From the NCBI RefSeq assembly GCF_029338395.1, contig NZ_CP119809.1:1860001-1924000 (forward strand): a stretch of DNA of 64,000 nt, read 5' to 3'. This document shows, piece by piece, positions 1,974-27,562 of the stretch. The notes beneath the pieces are model-generated. The model saw nothing but the letters and a program-made list of their open reading frames with translations. It ran no database searches and had not been told where the DNA came from. Source of the DNA: Halorussus caseinilyticus (GTDB lineage: Archaea; Halobacteriota; Halobacteria; Halobacteriales; Haladaptataceae). Position numbers and translations under genes: made by a program. The first letter of the stretch is position 1; each line of letters opens with the position of its first letter.

Positions 1974-3590
1974 ATGGGGGTTATCTTAGCGGCCGGTATC
2001 GGGTCTCGACTTCGGCCGCTCACGCTTCAGAAGCCGAAGTCTTGTATCGAAGTGGACGGCGCGCCGATTCTCGCCCGCCAACTCAGCGCCTACGCCGACG
2101 CGGGCGTGACCGACGTGGTGGTCGTCGCGGGGTATTTGGCCGACGACGTGCGCGCACTCTGTGAGGAAGTCGCGGACGCGCGCCCGGAACTCGACGTGAC
2201 TGTCCGCGAAAGCGAGGTGTTCGCCAACACCGACAACATGTACTCGCTGTATCTGGCGCGCGAGGAAGTCGCTGGCGACCCGTTCGTCCTGACCAACGGT
2301 GACGTGGTGTTCGAACCGGACCTGCTGGCCGACCTGCTCGCGGCCGACGCCGACAGCGCCGTCGCCACCGACACCGAGACGTTCTCGGAGGAGGCGATGA
2401 AAGTGACCGTCGGCGACGACGGCCGGGTGACACACATCGCCAAGGGCGTCCCCAAAGACGTAGCCTACGGCGTCTCGACCGACGCCTATCGCTTCTCCGC
2501 GGACTTCTCGGCCACGCTGTTCGAGGAGATTACCCGGACCGTCGAACGCGAGGGCAACTTCGGCGACTGGACCGAGGCCGCAATCGACCGCCTCGTCAGG
2601 AACCGGGACCACGACGTGGAACCCGCCGACGTGTCGGGTCGCCGGTGGGTCGAAATCGACGACTTCGCGGACCTCCGGAACGCGGACCGCCGGTTCGCCT
2701 CGCTGTCTCCCCTCGGCGAGAAGGAGGCGGTCTTCTTCGACTTGGACGGTACGGTGTATCTGGACGACGAACTCGTGGACGGCGCGGACGGCGTGATTGA
2801 GTCGCTCCGCGAGCAGGGCGTCGATGTCTACTTCCTGACGAACAACTCCTCGAAGTGGAAGGACGACTACGCCGACCGACTGACGAATCTGGGCGTCCCG
2901 GCCGACCCCGAAGACGTGTTGCTCTCGACCGACGGGGTTCTCCAGCACCTCCGGCGCACCGACCCGGACGGCGTGTTCGTCCTCGGGACCGAGACGATGC
3001 GCGATGCGCTGGCCGACCGTGGGGTCGAGGTGGTAGAGGACCCGGACTTCGGCGACGACGCGCCTGAAACGGTCGTGGTCGGGTTCGACACCGAACTCAC
3101 CTACGAGAAGGCCCGGAACGCCACGCTCGCGGTCCGGAAGGGCGCGACGTTCCTGCTGGCCCATCCCGACGCAGTGTGTCCGACCGCCGAGGGGTTCGTC
3201 CCGGACTGCGGGGCCATCGGCGCGATGATAGAGCGCGCGACCGACCGGCAACCGGACCGGGTGTTCGGCAAGCCGAACGTCGAGATGATTGGGCCGGTCT
3301 TGGACGCCGAGGGGTACGCGCCCGACGAGGTTGCCGTGGTCGGCGACCGACTGGAGACCGACGTGCAACTCGCGGAGAACGTCGGGTGTGAGTCGGTGTG
3401 CGTGCTGTCGGGCGACGCGACCCGCGTCGACGTTGAGGCCAGCGACCGGTCGCCGTCGCTGGTCGCGCCGACCGTCGCCGCGTTGAGCGAGTTCGTCGGG
3501 GAGACCCCGGAAGCCGAATCCGACGAGCGCACCGACTCCCACGGCGAACGAATCGCGTCGGCCGAGCGCGGCGGAGGTGGCGACGAGTGA
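1974..3590 (+). CDS. Fusion of sugar/polyol-phosphate nucleotidyltransferase and NagD-type HAD phosphatase
   Basis: Two enzymes are fused in one 538-residue chain. Residues 1-235 form an NTP_transferase domain with the nucleotide signature GVILAAGIGSRLRPLT at the N-terminus, the LTNGDVVF metal motif and a C-terminal VEIDDFADL; the layout resembles LicC-type cytidylyltransferases. From about residue 246 a HAD class IIA domain follows, with DLDGT (nucleophile Asp near 256), FLTNNSS, FGKPNVEMI and VVGDRLETD. A plausible role is making a CDP-activated polyol or alcohol, with the phosphatase acting on an intermediate. I chose ATG 1974 because it directly precedes GVILAAG; TTG 1965 and GTG 1971 are alternatives. 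The stop overlaps the next start (GTGA), so the two genes are co-translated. Substrates are not determined by sequence. Confidence 0.88.
   Translation: MGVILAAGIGSRLRPLTLQKPKSCIEVDGAPILARQLSAYADAGVTDVVVVAGYLADDVRALCEEVADARPELDVTVRESEVFANTDNMYSLYLAREEVAGDPFVLTNGDVVFEPDLLADLLAADADSAVATDTETFSEEAMKVTVGDDGRVTHIAKGVPKDVAYGVSTDAYRFSADFSATLFEEITRTVEREGNFGDWTEAAIDRLVRNRDHDVEPADVSGRRWVEIDDFADLRNADRRFASLSPLGEKEAVFFDLDGTVYLDDELVDGADGVIESLREQGVDVYFLTNNSSKWKDDYADRLTNLGVPADPEDVLLSTDGVLQHLRRTDPDGVFVLGTETMRDALADRGVEVVEDPDFGDDAPETVVVGFDTELTYEKARNATLAVRKGATFLLAHPDAVCPTAEGFVPDCGAIGAMIERATDRQPDRVFGKPNVEMIGPVLDAEGYAPDEVAVVGDRLETDVQLAENVGCESVCVLSGDATRVDVEASDRSPSLVAPTVAALSEFVGETPEAESDERTDSHGERIASAERGGGGDE
3573..3580 (+). 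promoter_or_regulatory. Shine-Dalgarno site for the GTG start at 3587
   Basis: GGAGGTGG lies seven bases before the GTG at 3587. It complements the archaeal 16S 3' end and supports the GTG that overlaps the upstream stop as the real start. Confidence 0.7.
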
Positions 3591-19149: not shown

Positions 19150-20163
19150 CTACAGTATCACGTCGGCCACGTCGCCGGTTCCGGCGCGGCGGACCACGGC
19201 GCGAACCACGTCCTGCGCGCCCGCGAGGTTGTCCGTGTCGCCGTCGAGGACGAGCAGTTTCGCCGGGCGGCCTTCCTCGACGACGCCGCAGTCGAGACCC
19301 GCGATTTTCGCGCCGTTGCGGGTCGCCATCCGGAGGACTTGGCGGGCGCTCACGTCGGCGAGTTTGGCGGCGAACTCCATCTCGCGGAACATCGACGGCG
19401 AGTTGAGCATCACGTTGTCGGTGCCGAGCGCGACGGTGGTCCGGTCGGCGAGGTTCGCGATGGGCGGCACGCCGACGCCGGTCACGAGGTTCGACCGCGG
19501 GCAGACCACCACGGGAGTCTCGCTGTCGGCGATGCGGTCGAGGTGGAGCGGTTCGGGGTGGACGACGTGGACGAGGAAGTCGGGATTCAGGTCCAGCGCC
19601 GGGTTGATGTCGTCGGGGTCTCGCTCGCCCGCGTGGATGCCGAACAGTTTGCCCGCGTCGGCGGTGGCGTTTCGCTCTCGGCCGAACTCGCCGTCGCGCG
19701 CGCCGCTGGCACCGAACCCGTCGCTGGCCTCCATCGCCTCTATCGTCTCCCGGCCCAGAATCACAGGGTCCACGTCGAGTCCTTCGACCGCCTCGCGGAG
19801 GGCGTAGACGCCTTCGACGCCGCCCTCGCGGAATTCGAGGAACGAGGCGGTCCCGGTCTGCCGCATGAACGTCACCGACCGGCGCATCGCCGAGACCTTC
19901 TCCTCGCGGGACGCCGCCCGCAGGAGTCGATGTTTCAGGCCGTCGGGCGGCGCGACGAGTTCGTCTAGACTCAGGCCGCCACCGGCCTCCTTCGCGATGG
20001 AGTCGCCGATGTGGGTGTGGGCGTTGACGAACGCCGGGAGGACGATTCGGGACGAATCGACCGCGGCCTCCTCGACTGCGCGTATCTCGCCGTCCTCGAC
20101 GACGACCCGACCCTCGACGGGTTCGAAGTCGGGACCGCGGAGGACGGTTCCCTCGACTATCAT
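19150..20163 (-). CDS. Amidohydrolase family protein (cytosine deaminase/guanine deaminase-like)
   Basis: A 337-residue metal-dependent hydrolase. The first metal motif is NAHTHIGD near residue 48 (two His); a third His is in FGIHAGE; a fourth is probably in LVHVVHPE; and the catalytic Asp is in VALGTDNVMLN. A small beta-sandwich is formed by both ends of the chain, as in the SsnA/TrzN/AtzB-like group. It probably deaminates or hydrolyses a cyclic amidine or amide such as a purine or pyrimidine; the substrate is not predictable. It is shorter than most members (about 420-450) but has all recognisable motifs. It stands alone, with an R2 repeat after its 3' end and an R1 repeat beyond its 5' end. 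Confidence 0.85.
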   Translation of the reverse strand: MIVEGTVLRGPDFEPVEGRVVVEDGEIRAVEEAAVDSSRIVLPAFVNAHTHIGDSIAKEAGGGLSLDELVAPPDGLKHRLLRAASREEKVSAMRRSVTFMRQTGTASFLEFREGGVEGVYALREAVEGLDVDPVILGRETIEAMEASDGFGASGARDGEFGRERNATADAGKLFGIHAGERDPDDINPALDLNPDFLVHVVHPEPLHLDRIADSETPVVVCPRSNLVTGVGVPPIANLADRTTVALGTDNVMLNSPSMFREMEFAAKLADVSARQVLRMATRNGAKIAGLDCGVVEEGRPAKLLVLDGDTDNLAGAQDVVRAVVRRAGTGDVADVIL

Positions 20164-22273: not shown

Positions 22274-23500
22274 CTACTCGAACTCGTCCAGCGTCGTCCG
22301 CTGACCCGCGGTCCGAACCTCGCTGACCAGCGCACCCTCGGTCTCCAGTCCGAGGACGCGCTCTGCGGCGTGACCCACCGCGTCGGTGTGGCCGTCGGGC
22401 GCGTAGACGCCGAGTCGCCACTGCTCGCGCTGGACGTGTTGGAGGGCGGCCACCAGCGCCGACTGCTGGTCGAGGCGTCGAATCTCGCCGTTGACGATGA
22501 CCCGACTCTCGGATTCGGTCATGCTGGGCCTGTCGAGAACTTCGATGATGACCTCGCCCGGTTCCACGTCGGCCTCGGCCGCGATGTCGGCCTCGTAGTC
22601 GCGGAGGGTCTCGTAGTCGGCGTCGATGACGCCCTCGGGAACGTCGGACATCTCGGCCCAGACCGCCCGCTTGTAGAGGTCCCGGTCGCTGAGTCGCCGG
22701 GCGTACTCGGCGGTCTCCGGCGTCTCGCGCAACGCGACCAACAGGTCGTAGTCGTCCATCCGGCGAAGTCGCTCGGCGGTCACGTCTGTCGCTTCGAGCA
22801 GACGCTCGCTGGCCTGTTGGAGGATGCCCCGAGCGATGCGCGTGACGTGGTGGTTGTAGACGGTGGGGTTCATCAGCGCCCGCGCCAGCAGGAGACTCTC
22901 GGCCGTCGGGACGTTGCCCTCCGCCAACACGAGTTCGCCGTCGATGAGGGTGAGTTCGCGCACCAGACGCGAGTGGTCGATGGTGCCGTAGGGGACGCCG
23001 GTGTGGTGGGCGTCCCGGACGAGGTAGTCCATCCGGTCCACGTCGAGTTCGCCCGAGACGAGTTGACCCAACTTCCCGTCACCGGCGATGAGGTCCGCGA
23101 CGGTACCGGGGTCGTGGCCGTGGTCCCGAAGTACGTCGCCGACTTCGCTCTCGTCGAGGAGTTCGTGAACGTCGTCGTGGTACTTGCCGGTGTGGCGGTG
23201 GATTACCTCCTCGATGGCGTGACTGTACGGGCAGTGGCCGATGTCGTGGAGGATGGCGGCGGCCCGAACTCGCTCGGCCTGCTTGCCCTGAATGCCGAGG
23301 TGGTCGAGTCCCTCGCAGGCGAGGTGGTAGACGCCGAGACTGTGTTCGAACCGGGTGTGGTTCGCCGAGGGGTAGACGAGATGGGCCGGGCCGAGTTGCC
23401 TGATTCGTCGGAGTCGCTGGACCGCGGGCGTGTCGAACAAGGCGCGAGCGACGCCCTCGACCTCGATGTGGTCGTGAACGCTGTCCTTGATGGTCTTCAT
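22274..23500 (-). CDS. HD-domain phosphohydrolase (dNTP triphosphohydrolase-like)
   Basis: A 408-residue protein of the COG1078 HD superfamily. The metal-binding residues are visible as the first His in TRFEHSLGVYHL near residue 50, the HD pair in AILHDIGHCPYSH near 88-100, and a later Asp in DRMDYLVRDAHHTG. This organisation is that of dGTPase/SAMHD1-type enzymes that cut dNTPs or related nucleotides. The C-terminal half is helical with a final beta-rich part. The start MKTIKDSVHDHIEVEG is typical for the family. It is transcribed in the same direction as the aldehyde dehydrogenase, 168 bases away across an AT-rich region, so separate promoters are likely. Confidence 0.9.
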   Translation of the reverse strand: MKTIKDSVHDHIEVEGVARALFDTPAVQRLRRIRQLGPAHLVYPSANHTRFEHSLGVYHLACEGLDHLGIQGKQAERVRAAAILHDIGHCPYSHAIEEVIHRHTGKYHDDVHELLDESEVGDVLRDHGHDPGTVADLIAGDGKLGQLVSGELDVDRMDYLVRDAHHTGVPYGTIDHSRLVRELTLIDGELVLAEGNVPTAESLLLARALMNPTVYNHHVTRIARGILQQASERLLEATDVTAERLRRMDDYDLLVALRETPETAEYARRLSDRDLYKRAVWAEMSDVPEGVIDADYETLRDYEADIAAEADVEPGEVIIEVLDRPSMTESESRVIVNGEIRRLDQQSALVAALQHVQREQWRLGVYAPDGHTDAVGHAAERVLGLETEGALVSEVRTAGQRTTLDEFE

Positions 23501-23583: not shown

Positions 23584-23634
23584 GACGATGGTGATGTCGG
23601 GGAGGTCTCGAAACGACGATGGTGATGTCGGGGA
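23584..23634. repeat. 31-bp-period direct repeat abutting R1 copy D
   Basis: GACGATGGTGATGTCGGGGA occurs at 23584-23603 and 23615-23634; the second copy runs directly into the AGCTAGC edge of the R1 element at 23635. Confidence 0.9.
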
Positions 23635-23887: not shown

Positions 23888-24898
23888 ATGACGACGTTTC
23901 TCTCCGGGGGCACCGGGACCCCCAAGCTACTCGCCGGGGCCGAGTCGGTCTTCGACCCGGCAGACACGACCGTCGTCGCCAACACCGGCGACGACGTGGA
24001 GTTGGGCGGCCTGCTCGTCTGTCCCGACGTGGACACCGTGCTGTTCGAGCAGGGCGACCTGCTGGACCGCGAACTCTGGTGGGGCATCGAAGGCGACACC
24101 ACCGAGACCCACGACGAACTCCACGAACTCGCCGCGGCCGCGGGTCTCGACGGCGGGCCGCGGTACCTCCCCGACGAGGCCCAGACCGCGGGCCGAGACA
24201 TCGCCCGCTGGCGGCGCTTCTCGGGGGTCGCCGAGTTCATGGAACTCGGCGACCGGGACCGGGCGGTCCACGTCACCCGGACGAGTCTGTTGGACGAGGG
24301 CCACAGTCTCACCGAAGTCACCCGACTGCTCGCCGACGCCTTCGACGTGCCCGTGGACGTGGTGCCAATGAGCGACGACCCCGTGGCCTCCGTCGTCCAC
24401 ACTCCCGAGGGGGACGACGAGTACGAAGACGAGATGCACTTTCAGGAGTTCTGGGTGGCCCACCGCGGCGACCCTGAAGTGGACCACGTGGAGTTCCGCG
24501 GCGGCGAGGACGCCGAACCCACCCGTGCCGCACTCGGCGCAATCGAGGAAGGGCCGGTCGTCGTCGGCCCGTCGAACCCCGTCACCAGCATCGGGCCGAT
24601 GCTCGCAATCGACGAACTCCACGACGCGCTCGAAGAAGCCACCGTGGTCGCCGTCTCGCCGTTCGTGGAGGACGAGGTGTTCTCCGGCCCGGCGGCCGAC
24701 CTGATGGAAGGCGTCGGCTTCGACCCCTCGACTGCCGGTGTCGCGGAGGCCTACCCCTTCGCCGACGCCTTCGTGTTGGACGACCGCGACGACACTGACC
24801 TCGACCGCCCGGTGGTCAAGACCGACACCGAGATGAGCGACGACGAAGACGCCGAGCGCGTGGCCCGCGCCGTCGCCGACGCGCTGGAGGTGATTTGA
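23888..24898 (+). CDS. cofD: 2-phospho-L-lactate transferase CofD
   Basis: A 336-residue CofD that joins the lactyl-phospho (or phosphoenolpyruvyl) moiety to Fo to form F420-0. Motifs are [15 protein letters not shown] at the N-terminus, [23 protein letters not shown], the [22 protein letters not shown] region that lines the Fo site, and [13 protein letters not shown] near residue 225. ATG 23888 begins exactly at the conserved MTTFLSGG; the longer frame upstream reads through R1 repeat DNA and is not real. The stop is adjacent to the GTG of the next gene, which has a Shine-Dalgarno site inside the cofD 3' end, so the four genes cofD to DUF447 form one operon. Confidence 0.95.
24886..24894 (+). 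promoter_or_regulatory. Strong Shine-Dalgarno site for the GTG start at 24899
   Basis: GGAGGTGAT, a nine-base complement to the 16S 3' end, lies inside the last codons of cofD with proper spacing to GTG 24899. It fixes the start and shows re-initiation within the operon. Confidence 0.75.
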
Positions 24899-25663
24899 GT
24901 GTTCGACCCTCGACTCGCGCTCGCCAGTCTCAGCGGCCAGTCCGACGCGGCGTGGGCCGAGACCGCCGAAGAACACGCTGGCGCGGCGTTCCTCGGTGGC
25001 ATCGCGCTCGACGGCCCGACCCGCGAGGCCGCCGCCGAGATGGTCGAACGCGACCGCGAGGAGTTCCTGCCCGACGACCCCGTGGCCTTCGTGGACCGCC
25101 AACTCGCCGCGCTCGCGGACGCCGACCTCCGACCGGGCTTCAACGTCCGAACCGCCTCGCTCGGTCCACTCCGAGAGGTCGCCGAAGTCTGCGCCGACCA
25201 CGACGCCATCCTCGAACTCAACGCCCACTGCCGACAGGACGAGATGTGCCGCGCCGGGGCCGGGGAAGCCCTCCTGCGGGACCCCGACCGACTCCGCGAG
25301 CAGGTGAGCGCCGCGGCCGCGGAAGGTCCCGCGGTGAGCGTGAAGGTCCGCGCGGAACTCTCCGGCGTGGACCTCTCGGCAGTCGCCCGCACGATTGCCG
25401 ACGCGGGCGGTGACGCCATCCACGTGGACGCGATGGACTCGGAGGCAGTCGTCGCCGACATCGCGGGAGTCGCCGCCGAGACCGACCTCTTCGTGATAGC
25501 GAACAACGGCGTCCGCGACGAGACCACGGTCCGGGAGTACTTAGACTACGGCGCGGACGCGGTGAGCGTCGGCCGACCGAGCGACGACCCCGCTGTCCTC
25601 CGGCGAGTCCGGACCGCGGTAGACGACTGGTTCGAGACCGATAGACGGGAGGTGAGCGCATGA
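24899..25663 (+). CDS. Dihydrouridine synthase-like TIM-barrel flavoprotein
   Basis: A 254-residue protein of the tRNA-dihydrouridine synthase/dihydroorotate dehydrogenase-like barrel group. Visible are LILELNAHCRQDEMCR-type sequence near residue 100 (ILELNAHCRQDEMCRAGAG), SVKVRAELSGVDL, AIHVDAMDSEAVV and the C-terminal phosphate-binding strand FVIANNGVRDETT then GADAVSVGR. It is shorter than true Dus enzymes (about 320-340), lacks the C-terminal RNA-binding helical domain, and is linked to cofD. A role in tRNA modification is therefore uncertain; a cofactor-related redox function is an alternative. The GTG start directly follows the cofD stop. Confidence 0.72.
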   Translation: MFDPRLALASLSGQSDAAWAETAEEHAGAAFLGGIALDGPTREAAAEMVERDREEFLPDDPVAFVDRQLAALADADLRPGFNVRTASLGPLREVAEVCADHDAILELNAHCRQDEMCRAGAGEALLRDPDRLREQVSAAAAEGPAVSVKVRAELSGVDLSAVARTIADAGGDAIHVDAMDSEAVVADIAGVAAETDLFVIANNGVRDETTVREYLDYGADAVSVGRPSDDPAVLRRVRTAVDDWFETDRREVSA

Positions 25664-26502
25664 CCCCCGCCGAGGACGCCCAACTCGCGCTCCTGCTGGA
25701 GGTGTCGGGCACGCCCAAGCCCGGCAACGTGGACCGCGAGCGCGACTTCACGGACCTCCGATTCGACCACTTCCTCGCGGGCGCGGTCGGTGCGGGTCCG
25801 GGCCTGCGCGCGGCCGAGCGCGGCGCTCCCGTCGGCGAAGCCTTCGAGCAGGCGGTCGCGGGGATGAGCCAACAGGAGGGCGGCAACACCCAGTTCGGCG
25901 CGCTCCTGTTGCTCGTGCCCCTCGTCCGGGCCGCCGCGGACGGCGACCTCTCGCCGGAGGGGGTCGCGCGCGTGGTCGAAGACACTACCGTAGAGGACGC
26001 CGCGAACTTCTACCGGGCGTTCGACCACGCCGACGTGTTCGTGGACGACCCACCCGAAGACGCCGAGGAACTCGACGCCCGGCGGGGGAGCGAGGCGGTT
26101 CCCGCGGTCGAATCGCGGGGTGTCACCCTCTACGACGTGATGGAACTCGGCGCGGAGTCCGACGACGTGGCCGCCGAGTGGACCGGCGAGTTCGAGCGCA
26201 CCTTCTGGGCGGCCGACCGCCTCGCGGAACTTTCGGGGTCGGTCCCGGCGTCGGCCCTCGGCGCGCGGGTCTACCTCGAACTGCTCGCGCGCGAACCCGA
26301 CACGCTGGTCGCCAAACAGCACGGCGCGAAGACCGCCGAGAGCGTTCGGGTCCGGGCGCAGGAAGCCCTCGAAGGCGGTCCCGAGGTGGTCGAGGCATTC
26401 GCGGAGTCGTTGGTAGAAGACGGCGTGAACCCCGGTACGACCGCCGACCTCACCGCGGCGGGCCTGTTCGTCGCGCTGGCGCGCGGGGAGGTGTCGGTGT
26501 GA
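25660..26502 (+). CDS. Triphosphoribosyl-dephospho-CoA synthase family protein (CitG/MdcB-like)
   Basis: A 280-residue member of the CitG family (COG1767). The family hallmarks are GTPKPGNVDRERDF near residue 17, MSQQEGGNTQFGALLLL near 68, and the C-terminal NPGTTADLTAAGLFVAL. CitG proper makes the prosthetic group precursor of citrate lyase, but no citrate or malonate lyase subunits are nearby, and homologues cluster with tetrahydromethanopterin genes in methylotrophs; the role here is therefore open and probably concerns cofactor synthesis. The ATG overlaps the previous stop, and GGAGGTGA at 25648-25655 is a good Shine-Dalgarno site. Confidence 0.82.
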   Translation: MTPAEDAQLALLLEVSGTPKPGNVDRERDFTDLRFDHFLAGAVGAGPGLRAAERGAPVGEAFEQAVAGMSQQEGGNTQFGALLLLVPLVRAAADGDLSPEGVARVVEDTTVEDAANFYRAFDHADVFVDDPPEDAEELDARRGSEAVPAVESRGVTLYDVMELGAESDDVAAEWTGEFERTFWAADRLAELSGSVPASALGARVYLELLAREPDTLVAKQHGAKTAESVRVRAQEALEGGPEVVEAFAESLVEDGVNPGTTADLTAAGLFVALARGEVSV

Positions 26503-27230
26503 CCGGCGAGCGAGAGCCGCGGGACGGGTCGGGCGAGACCGAGAAATCGGAAGACCGCCAGTCCGCTGGCGACCAAGAGTCGCCAGCGGACTGGCCGGTC
26601 GCGCTCCGGGGCGTCACAGAGTCGGTCGTGACCACCCTCGGCCCGAACGACCTGTGGAACGTCGCGGCGCTCGGGTTGCATCCACCCGAGGAGTCCGGTC
26701 CGTCCGACGAGTCGGACGGACCGGCGGCAGACGAATCGTCGGGCGACCCGGACGACGAATCGACCCCGAAAGCCCCCGTGACGGCCACGACGTGGGGCAA
26801 CACCCGGACCCGGCGCAACTTCCACCGGCAGGGCCGGGGCTACGTCCAGTTCACCCGAAATCCGGTCGATTACGTGGACGCGGCGCTCTCCATCTTCGAA
26901 ATCGACGAGCCAGTGCTGGACAGCGCAGACGCGTGGGTCGAAGTCGAAGTCGAGCAGGTCGATTCCGGCGAGGACGGCGGCACGCGATGGGAGCAGTGGG
27001 AACTCTACCCCCGAGAGGCGAGCGTCGAACGCGAGACGGTGCCGACGACCAACAGGGGGTTCAGCGCCGTCGTGGAGGCCACCGTCGCGGCGTCACGACT
27101 CGGCGTGGACGCCTACGACCAGACGAAACTCCGAGAGCGACTGGCGTACTTCGAGGAAGTCGCCCGAGCGTGCGGCGACGACCGGGTGTGCGCGGCGACG
27201 GACCGACTCCGCGAGTACGTCGAAGAGTAG
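26499..27230 (+). CDS. DUF447-family protein
   Basis: A 243-residue protein from the GTG at 26499 (GTGA overlap with the citG-like stop, GGAGGTG upstream). An acidic Ser/Glu/Asp-rich stretch occupies residues 1-30 and 65-90. The folded part begins ALRGVTESVVTTLGPNDLWN, continues TATTWGNTRTRRNFHRQG, the VQFTRNPVDYVDAAL segment, RWEQWELYPREASV and VEATVAASRLGVDAY, a pattern I associate with DUF447 (COG2457), a presumed flavin-binding split-barrel. Relatives in methylotrophs and methanogens occur near tetrahydromethanopterin genes. The long frame starting at 26178 overlaps citG and is not the real start. It forms the last gene of the cofD operon. Confidence 0.8.
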   Translation: MTGEREPRDGSGETEKSEDRQSAGDQESPADWPVALRGVTESVVTTLGPNDLWNVAALGLHPPEESGPSDESDGPAADESSGDPDDESTPKAPVTATTWGNTRTRRNFHRQGRGYVQFTRNPVDYVDAALSIFEIDEPVLDSADAWVEVEVEQVDSGEDGGTRWEQWELYPREASVERETVPTTNRGFSAVVEATVAASRLGVDAYDQTKLRERLAYFEEVARACGDDRVCAATDRLREYVEE

Positions 27231-27523: not shown

Positions 27524-27562
27524 TTTTACGAAGAAAAGTACCCTTTTACGAAGAAAAGTACC
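27524..27562. repeat. 19-bp direct repeat, period 20, in a divergent promoter region
   Basis: TTTTACGAAGAAAAGTACC occurs at 27524-27542 and 27544-27562. It lies between the divergent small gene (27286-27486) and S17e (27706) and could be a pair of operator sites two helical turns apart. Confidence 0.8.

Follow-up and report, generated by a model that had tools for sequence, protein, structure and literature searches.

The haloarchaeal citG-DUF447 gene pair beside cofD: candidate steps of a methanopterin-type pterin pathway

What does a gene of F420 biosynthesis have in common with the three genes that follow it in Halorussus caseinilyticus? In the 64,000-nucleotide stretch of contig NZ_CP119809.1 analyzed here (positions 1,860,001 to 1,924,000; the window), cofD is followed by genes for a Dus-like protein, a CitG-like protein and a DUF447 protein. 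The original prediction, made from this sequence, was that all four serve one cofactor pathway involving F420 or a pterin. The pterin part of that guess gained support; the F420 part and the single pathway for all four genes did not. We consider it slightly on the probable side that the citG-DUF447 pair makes part of a methanopterin-type pterin which, beside folate, serves Mer and then split MetE in most haloarchaea. A wider proposal is that most haloarchaea have a second cofactor, built on beta-ribofuranosyl-aminobenzene 5'-phosphate (RFAP) and reserved for the F420-dependent methyl branch from Mer to split MetE, with folate covering all other needs, and that the CitG-like and DUF447 proteins catalyze two so far unassigned steps of methanopterin-type synthesis across archaea and methylotrophic bacteria. 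That proposal is more tentative, and we put its chances a little short of even.

Gene order and co-loss in haloarchaea

The four genes, of which the last three each have a start that overlaps or abuts the previous stop, were confirmed from the window sequence (Table 1). In a profile scan, CofD reached its equivalog TIGR01819 (391.9 bits against a cut-off of 257.45) and also matched PF01933. The Dus-like protein matched PF01207 (40.1 bits, above the cut-off of 20.4) and fell under the cut-off of the MJ0144-type family TIGR00736 (122.5 vs. 218.7 bits), which was exceeded in none of 97 haloarchaeal genomes. The CitG-like protein scored 227.5 bits against PF01874 (cut-off 27), and the DUF447 protein was over cut-off for both PF04289 (56.7 bits) and PF20766 (47.9 bits). 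The next full-size gene 3' of DUF447 is asd.

We profiled the four genes across the 97 genomes, as had been suggested, counting as neighbors those profile matches that started no more than 2.5 kb apart, on one strand and in the given order. The CofD family was matched in every genome (over cut-off in 96), Dus-like proteins in 95, and CitG-like and DUF447 proteins in 94 each; all four genes stood in order in 77. The predicted conservation of gene order was thus borne out, and it extends to other Halobacteriota. The junctions, however, are not equally firm. The genes cofD and dus are neighbors in 94 of 95 genomes, the exception having them on different contigs, and citG and DUF447 are neighbors in all 94 genomes that hold both, whereas dus and citG adjoin in 78 of 92. 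The 14 genomes in which these two are apart all belong to a single family (f4); the smallest separation is 3.6 kb, and at the other extreme the genes lie on different contigs. Since this one junction is split in 14 genomes while the others are near-universal, the operon is two modules, cofD-dus and citG-DUF447. Whole modules also come apart: genomes G001, G007 and G018 hold cofD and dus without citG-DUF447, and G002 and G069 hold citG-DUF447 without dus. Because dus was lost in the latter two while citG-DUF447 was kept, the Dus-like gene is separable and, on present evidence, not part of the pterin pathway. In G001 and G007, asd lies within about 300 bases 3' of dus; in G018 another gene intervenes. 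A weak CitG match between dus and asd in G018 (35 residues, E 0.007) sits inside another frame of 330 residues and was not counted as a relic.

The CitG-like protein, DUF447, the RFAP synthase homolog (TIGR00144) and the Mer ortholog are all missing from the same three genomes, G001, G007 and G018. This gives the pterin link in haloarchaea independent support. The RFAP synthase homolog is present in the other 94 genomes, over cut-off in 93. Best matches to Mer reach 267–334 bits in 94 genomes; G001 and G007 have no match, and the best in G018 (E 9.7e-39) is on par with the paralogs listed. In G000 the citG-DUF447 pair, the RFAP synthase homolog and Mer occupy three separate loci. At least two independent losses occurred, because G001 and G007 belong to one genus and G018 to another, in which the other six sampled members have all four genes.

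Three other candidates for a co-loss partner were rejected. Folate synthesis as such was set aside since dihydropteroate synthase (DHPS, PF00809) was matched in 97 of 97 genomes, Mch (PF02289) since it was matched in just as many, and TIGR00284, the DHPS-like family of tetrahydromethanopterin (H4MPT) type, since it was over cut-off in none of them. For MetE, the catalytic family PF01717 has no match in G018 and a single match in G001 and in G007, where the catalytic-type gene lacks the second subunit that overlaps its counterpart in G000 (by Pfam for G001 and by a look at the sequence for G007). This lone gene (L197:5367-6422; L198:5619-6674) lies beside an apparent A-type ATP synthase cluster.

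Neighborhoods and folds beyond the haloarchaea

DUF447 was found in 112 of 120 sampled genomes of the phylum Halobacteriota, haloarchaea included, and outside the haloarchaea the order Dus-CitG-DUF447 is frequent, often with overlapping genes. Among 28 neighborhoods chosen for spread, 26 contain CitG, DUF447 is next to it in all 26, and Dus lies upstream in 17. Among 80 named loci, DUF447 adjoins CitG in 63 of the 75 with room for it, and Dus is upstream in 43 of 70. Two loci whose called frames overlap CitG (L071 and L183) were counted as adjacent by hand, where the script gave 25 and 62; L069 and L074, with no CitG found near DUF447, are outside the adjacency counts. A gene for dihydromethanopterin reductase (DmrX) follows within 1.4 kb in 4 of 26 spread loci and 19 of 68 named loci with room, and both DmrX proteins tested were over cut-off for TIGR02700. 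Two loci, L072 and L096, show the order CofD-Dus-CitG-DUF447-DmrX.

The haloarchaeal operon resembles the Dus-CitG-DUF447-DmrX cluster of methanogens, which has the same order and often overlapping genes across Halobacteriota. It differs in that asd comes after DUF447 in the window and in that the haloarchaeal Dus-like protein shows no methanogenesis marker 9 domain, a domain carried by four of five scanned Dus proteins from Dus-CitG-DUF447 loci (all except that of L096). The window's Dus-like protein has an AHCRQ motif with Cys111, which we take to be the Dus catalytic cysteine; AHC is kept in 11 of 12 aligned relatives. The exception, at L062:5927-6877, has lost the Dus Pfam match and kept the marker 9 domain. 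At L062, L193 (a Methanothrix), L099 and similar loci, the Dus-like protein is short.

The CitG-like and DUF447 families were also said to cluster with H4MPT genes in methylotrophs, and we saw this in the three plasmid-borne bacterial islands examined, each of which carries RFAP synthase, Mch, Fae, a CitG-like protein, DUF447 and a DUF6513 protein. CitG-like proteins were matched in 27 plasmid records and DUF447 in 20; four regions were inspected, and many Azospirillum CitG matches were left out. The fourth region has DUF447, DUF6513 and a flavoprotein in a row, with no CitG within the stretch shown. The gene sets of bacterial H4MPT islands comprise RFAP synthase, mtd, mch, a RimK-like gene, CitG-like and fae, together with DUF447, DUF6513 and the flavoprotein; in the literature, the methylotroph islands appear as orf5, orf7, orf17 and orf19–orf22. 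By the gene order in PMC3615186, the CitG-like protein should be Orf7 and DUF447 should be Orf19. What the islands share with haloarchaea is the two families themselves, CitG-like and DUF447, which in the islands lie near RFAP synthase. The difference is that the bacterial islands hold DUF6513 and Fae, whereas haloarchaea are without TIGR00284 and have the pair's genes with cofD. The DUF6513 protein of the Azoarcus island is itself TIGR00284-like (179.5 bits, below the cut-off of 256.65).

In haloarchaeal loci L202, L203 and L206, the genes for CofE and Mer abut or overlap each other. The RFAP synthase homolog of G002 is located about 1.5 kb upstream of CofE-Mer.

The DUF447 model had a predicted local distance difference test score (pLDDT) of 83.4, and its fold matches flavin mononucleotide (FMN)-bound 2iml (Z 22.4), 2nr4 (Z 22.1) and 2ptf (Z 16.2), followed by flavin reductase-type proteins at Z of about 13. 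These FMN-bound relatives are DUF447 proteins from A. fulgidus (2iml), M. mazei (MM1853, 2nr4) and M. thermautotrophicus (MTH_863, 2ptf), and the fold matches extend over 128–181 residues. Sharing their fold, the haloarchaeal protein differs from them in an N-terminal tail (approximately residues 1–30) and an insert (approximately 61–90), both of low model confidence. From the model, DUF447 is a candidate FMN-dependent reductase. The AlphaFold2 model of the CitG-like protein had a pLDDT of 91.5, and its only clear match in the PDB was 3h9p from Archaeoglobus fulgidus, titled a putative triphosphoribosyl-dephospho-CoA synthase. We regard the CitG-like protein as a candidate ribosyl-phosphate transferase.

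A candidate pathway and its rivals

In methanopterin synthesis, p-aminobenzoate and phosphoribosyl pyrophosphate yield RFAP. After RFAP has been joined to the pterin, reduction converts its ribose into ribitol; the next addition is a second ribose phosphate, followed by the acid tail. From the observed gene families, gene order, co-loss, neighborhoods and folds, we infer a compound, steps and step order for haloarchaea as follows. The RFAP synthase homolog, encoded elsewhere in the genome, would make the RFAP head group, judging from its family. The Halorussus genome encodes DHPS twice, once in a FolC-FolP fusion (826 residues) and once as a separate protein of 412 residues that is just over cut-off; the second, shorter enzyme could accept RFAP or another non-folate arylamine. 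DUF447 would most likely catalyze a flavin-linked reduction, either of the ribofuranosyl ring to open ribitol or elsewhere on the pterin. The CitG-like enzyme would most likely attach the second ribose phosphate, because the named CitG reaction moves a ribosyl group from ATP. The product may carry one-carbon units at the methylene-to-methyl step, where Mer, F420-dependent by homology, would make the methyl-pterin and split MetE would pass the methyl group on to homocysteine. CofD would supply F420, and its presence in the operon may be due to Mer's need for that cofactor. The Dus-like gene would be dispensable.

According to Price and colleagues (PMC7857596), methyl-folate or other methyl pterins are the predicted substrates of split MetE, the form of methionine synthase that Halobacteria usually have. 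In the open literature, which did not extend to the original papers on methylotroph orf7 and orf19–22, we found no functional assignment of CitG-like or DUF447 proteins. Nor did that literature, seen mostly as listings, yield a report linking citG-DUF447 to the RFAP synthase homolog and Mer in haloarchaea. A passage in PMC13140500 ties DUF447 to cannulae, without data there. If the pathway is true, late methanopterin steps, for which strict anaerobes are difficult subjects, would come within reach of simple gene deletion and methionine tests in Haloferax volcanii, a genetically tractable species. It would also offer a concrete candidate reason why F420 matters to haloarchaea, an importance that section 3.4 of PMC8305020 calls enigmatic.

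A number of results weigh against this pathway. The RFAP synthase homolog is below the equivalog NF040726 (178 vs. 328 bits), as is the enzyme of the Azoarcus H4MPT island at 151 bits. In an alignment of eight haloarchaeal (L088 left out) and three bacterial sequences, without the Methanothermobacter enzyme, all eight haloarchaeal homologs have N where the bacterial ones have D. The position presumably lies in the arylamine motif that holds D19 of the Methanothermobacter enzyme; in that enzyme, according to PMC6787355, D19A is inactive and D19N retains some activity. The H4MPT-type family TIGR00284 yields only 20 weak matches among the 97 genomes, and these fall on DHPS (PF00809) places where compared; seven control genomes match it, including M. 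jannaschii, S. acidocaldarius and M. acetivorans, three of them over cut-off. The shorter DHPS gives no sign of following the loss pattern, as there are two PF00809 matches in each of G001, G007 and G018 as well. Mer exceeded the TIGR03555 cut-off (348.7 bits) in none of the 97 genomes, and Mch is retained in the three genomes that lost the rest. A low MetE count by itself is no mark of these three, because G040, G050 and G081 also have a single PF01717 match. The co-loss comprises only two events, both in small genomes, and lacks a genome-wide null for comparison. Position is imperfect too: 12 of the 75 named loci with room have no DUF447 adjoining CitG, and G021 (L205) has no CofE beside Mer. 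Among 14 control genomes, all four archaea and no bacterium match both DUF447 and RFAP synthase, and the controls therefore cannot separate archaea with the pathway from archaea without it. One of those archaea, S. acidocaldarius, matches the CitG, DUF447 and RFAP synthase families and neither Mch nor Mer. Finally, the curators of haloarchaeal annotation judge HVO_2628, the RFAP synthase homolog of Haloferax volcanii (in which Mer is HVO_1937), probably not to be an RFAP-making enzyme (PMC8305020). In the curated view, folate is what haloarchaea use, enzymes specific to methanopterin are missing, and Mch and Mer belong to folate (PMC8305020, PMC4500146).

Several of these points would suit an explanation that we think unlikely, though far from negligible, in which the RFAP synthase homolog, CitG-like protein and DUF447 were inherited from methanogen-like ancestors and now make some other aryl-riboside or modify folate. 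Mer and MetE would then use folate, and the co-loss would reflect loss of methionine synthesis. The lack of TIGR00284 above cut-off, a presumed arylamine-binding motif that has N rather than D, the curated assignment of Mch and Mer and the universal DHPS all favor it. However, losing methionine synthesis would not alone remove an unrelated pathway, and the trio disappears together with Mer while Mch and DHPS stay.

It is quite improbable, to our mind, that genome reduction brought about the co-loss incidentally, with three small genomes shedding many accessory genes. The genomes are indeed only 2.1–2.4 Mb, and two independent losses are all that has been shown; yet the CitG-like protein, DUF447, RFAP synthase and Mer are all present in G021, a genome of 1.9 Mb at 98% completeness, and in G093 (2.2 Mb), and citG-DUF447 is also tied by position to methanopterin genes, both in bacteria and in methanogens.

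That the whole operon is a unit for F420 tailoring, with the Dus-like, CitG-like and DUF447 proteins acting on F420 after CofD, was rejected as very improbable on gene-loss patterns and control genomes. The shared order with cofD in 77 haloarchaea, and again in L072 and L096, would fit it. Against this, three genomes retain CofD without citG-DUF447, S. acidocaldarius matches the families of the pair and not CofD, and no cofD is listed in 22–24 kb of the three bacterial islands, for which the gene table is incomplete. These split patterns make it unlikely that citG-DUF447 tailors F420, and together with the loss of dus from G002 and G069 and the 14 dus-citG separations they also leave the idea of one pathway for all four genes unsupported.

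Least credible of all is that the CitG-like protein is an ordinary triphosphoribosyl-dephospho-CoA synthase for citrate or malonate lyase in a cluster without a common role: it shares the PF01874 family and the 3h9p fold with CitG and MdcB, but it misses both equivalogs by about 250 bits (TIGR03125, 24.4 vs. 272.3; TIGR03132, 23.6 vs. 282.35) and keeps different gene partners, with DUF447 linked to it throughout the haloarchaea that have it.

Translation starts and flanking genes

Table 1. Features of the cofD operon in the window (window positions) and the two DHPS genes of the same genome (positions within loci L105 and L106).
Feature	Location	Strand	Details
cofD, 2-phospho-L-lactate transferase (F420 biosynthesis)	23888..24898	+	336 residues; ATG 23888, TGA 24896-24898
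Dus-like TIM-barrel protein (MJ0144 type)	24899..25663	+	254 residues; GTG 24899 abuts cofD stop
CitG-like protein (PF01874)	25660..26502	+	280 residues; ATG 25660, 4-base overlap (ATGA) with Dus-like stop
DUF447 protein	26499..27230	+	243 residues; GTG 26499 overlaps citG stop (GTGA)
Shine-Dalgarno string GGAGGTGAT	24886-24894	+	precedes Dus-like start
Shine-Dalgarno string GGAGGTGA	25648-25655	+	precedes CitG-like start
Shine-Dalgarno string GGAGGTG	26487-26493	+	precedes DUF447 start
Two DHPS genes	L105:5541-6776 and L106:2526-5003		profile match

The original prediction had also pointed to strong Shine-Dalgarno (SD) sites within the operon. The three strings are present, and SD sites are rare in the window. 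Defining an SD core as GGAGG or GAGGTG no more than 18 bases before a start, and taking starts from a simple gene caller, we found a core at four of the nine tandem starts with tight spacing. Among the remaining 44 starts, 32 of them spaced and 12 belonging to first genes, a single one has a core, and the share among random window positions is 3.1%. Two of the four SD-bearing tandem starts are those of dus and citG; the DUF447 start was uncalled, and its SD was seen by inspection. SD sites in the window are therefore rare and tied to overlapping starts, and they are not special to the cofD operon, because the genes with starts at 3587 and 35347 have cores as well. What did not hold was the strength of the sites as a conserved signal. 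At 24 citG-DUF447 junctions from 23 haloarchaeal genomes (L002 and L022 are from the same genome), 23 retain the stop/start overlap and only 5 have an SD core, and we rejected the signal on these counts.

Two direct repeats flank the operon, each in two copies: the short repeat TTTTACGAAGAAAAGTACC at 27524-27562, in the gap 3' of DUF447, and ACGATGGTGATGTCGGGGA at 23585-23634, about 250 bases 5' of cofD. An amidohydrolase-family gene (Pfam) lies near cofD at 19153-20163 on the minus strand. Relatives of it (cluster c28) are also near cofD in two haloarchaea without citG-DUF447 (L091:10366-11391 and L092:4855-5880) and in a distant Halobacteriota genome (L070:11804-12988), and it is possibly a further cofactor enzyme. 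Upstream of cofD, a divergent HD-domain gene occupies 22274-23500 on the minus strand. By a look at the sequences, an HD-domain gene is also near cofD in the non-haloarchaeal loci L096 (12802-13944) and L093 (3613-4791), where UbiX- and UbiD-like proteins adjoin it.

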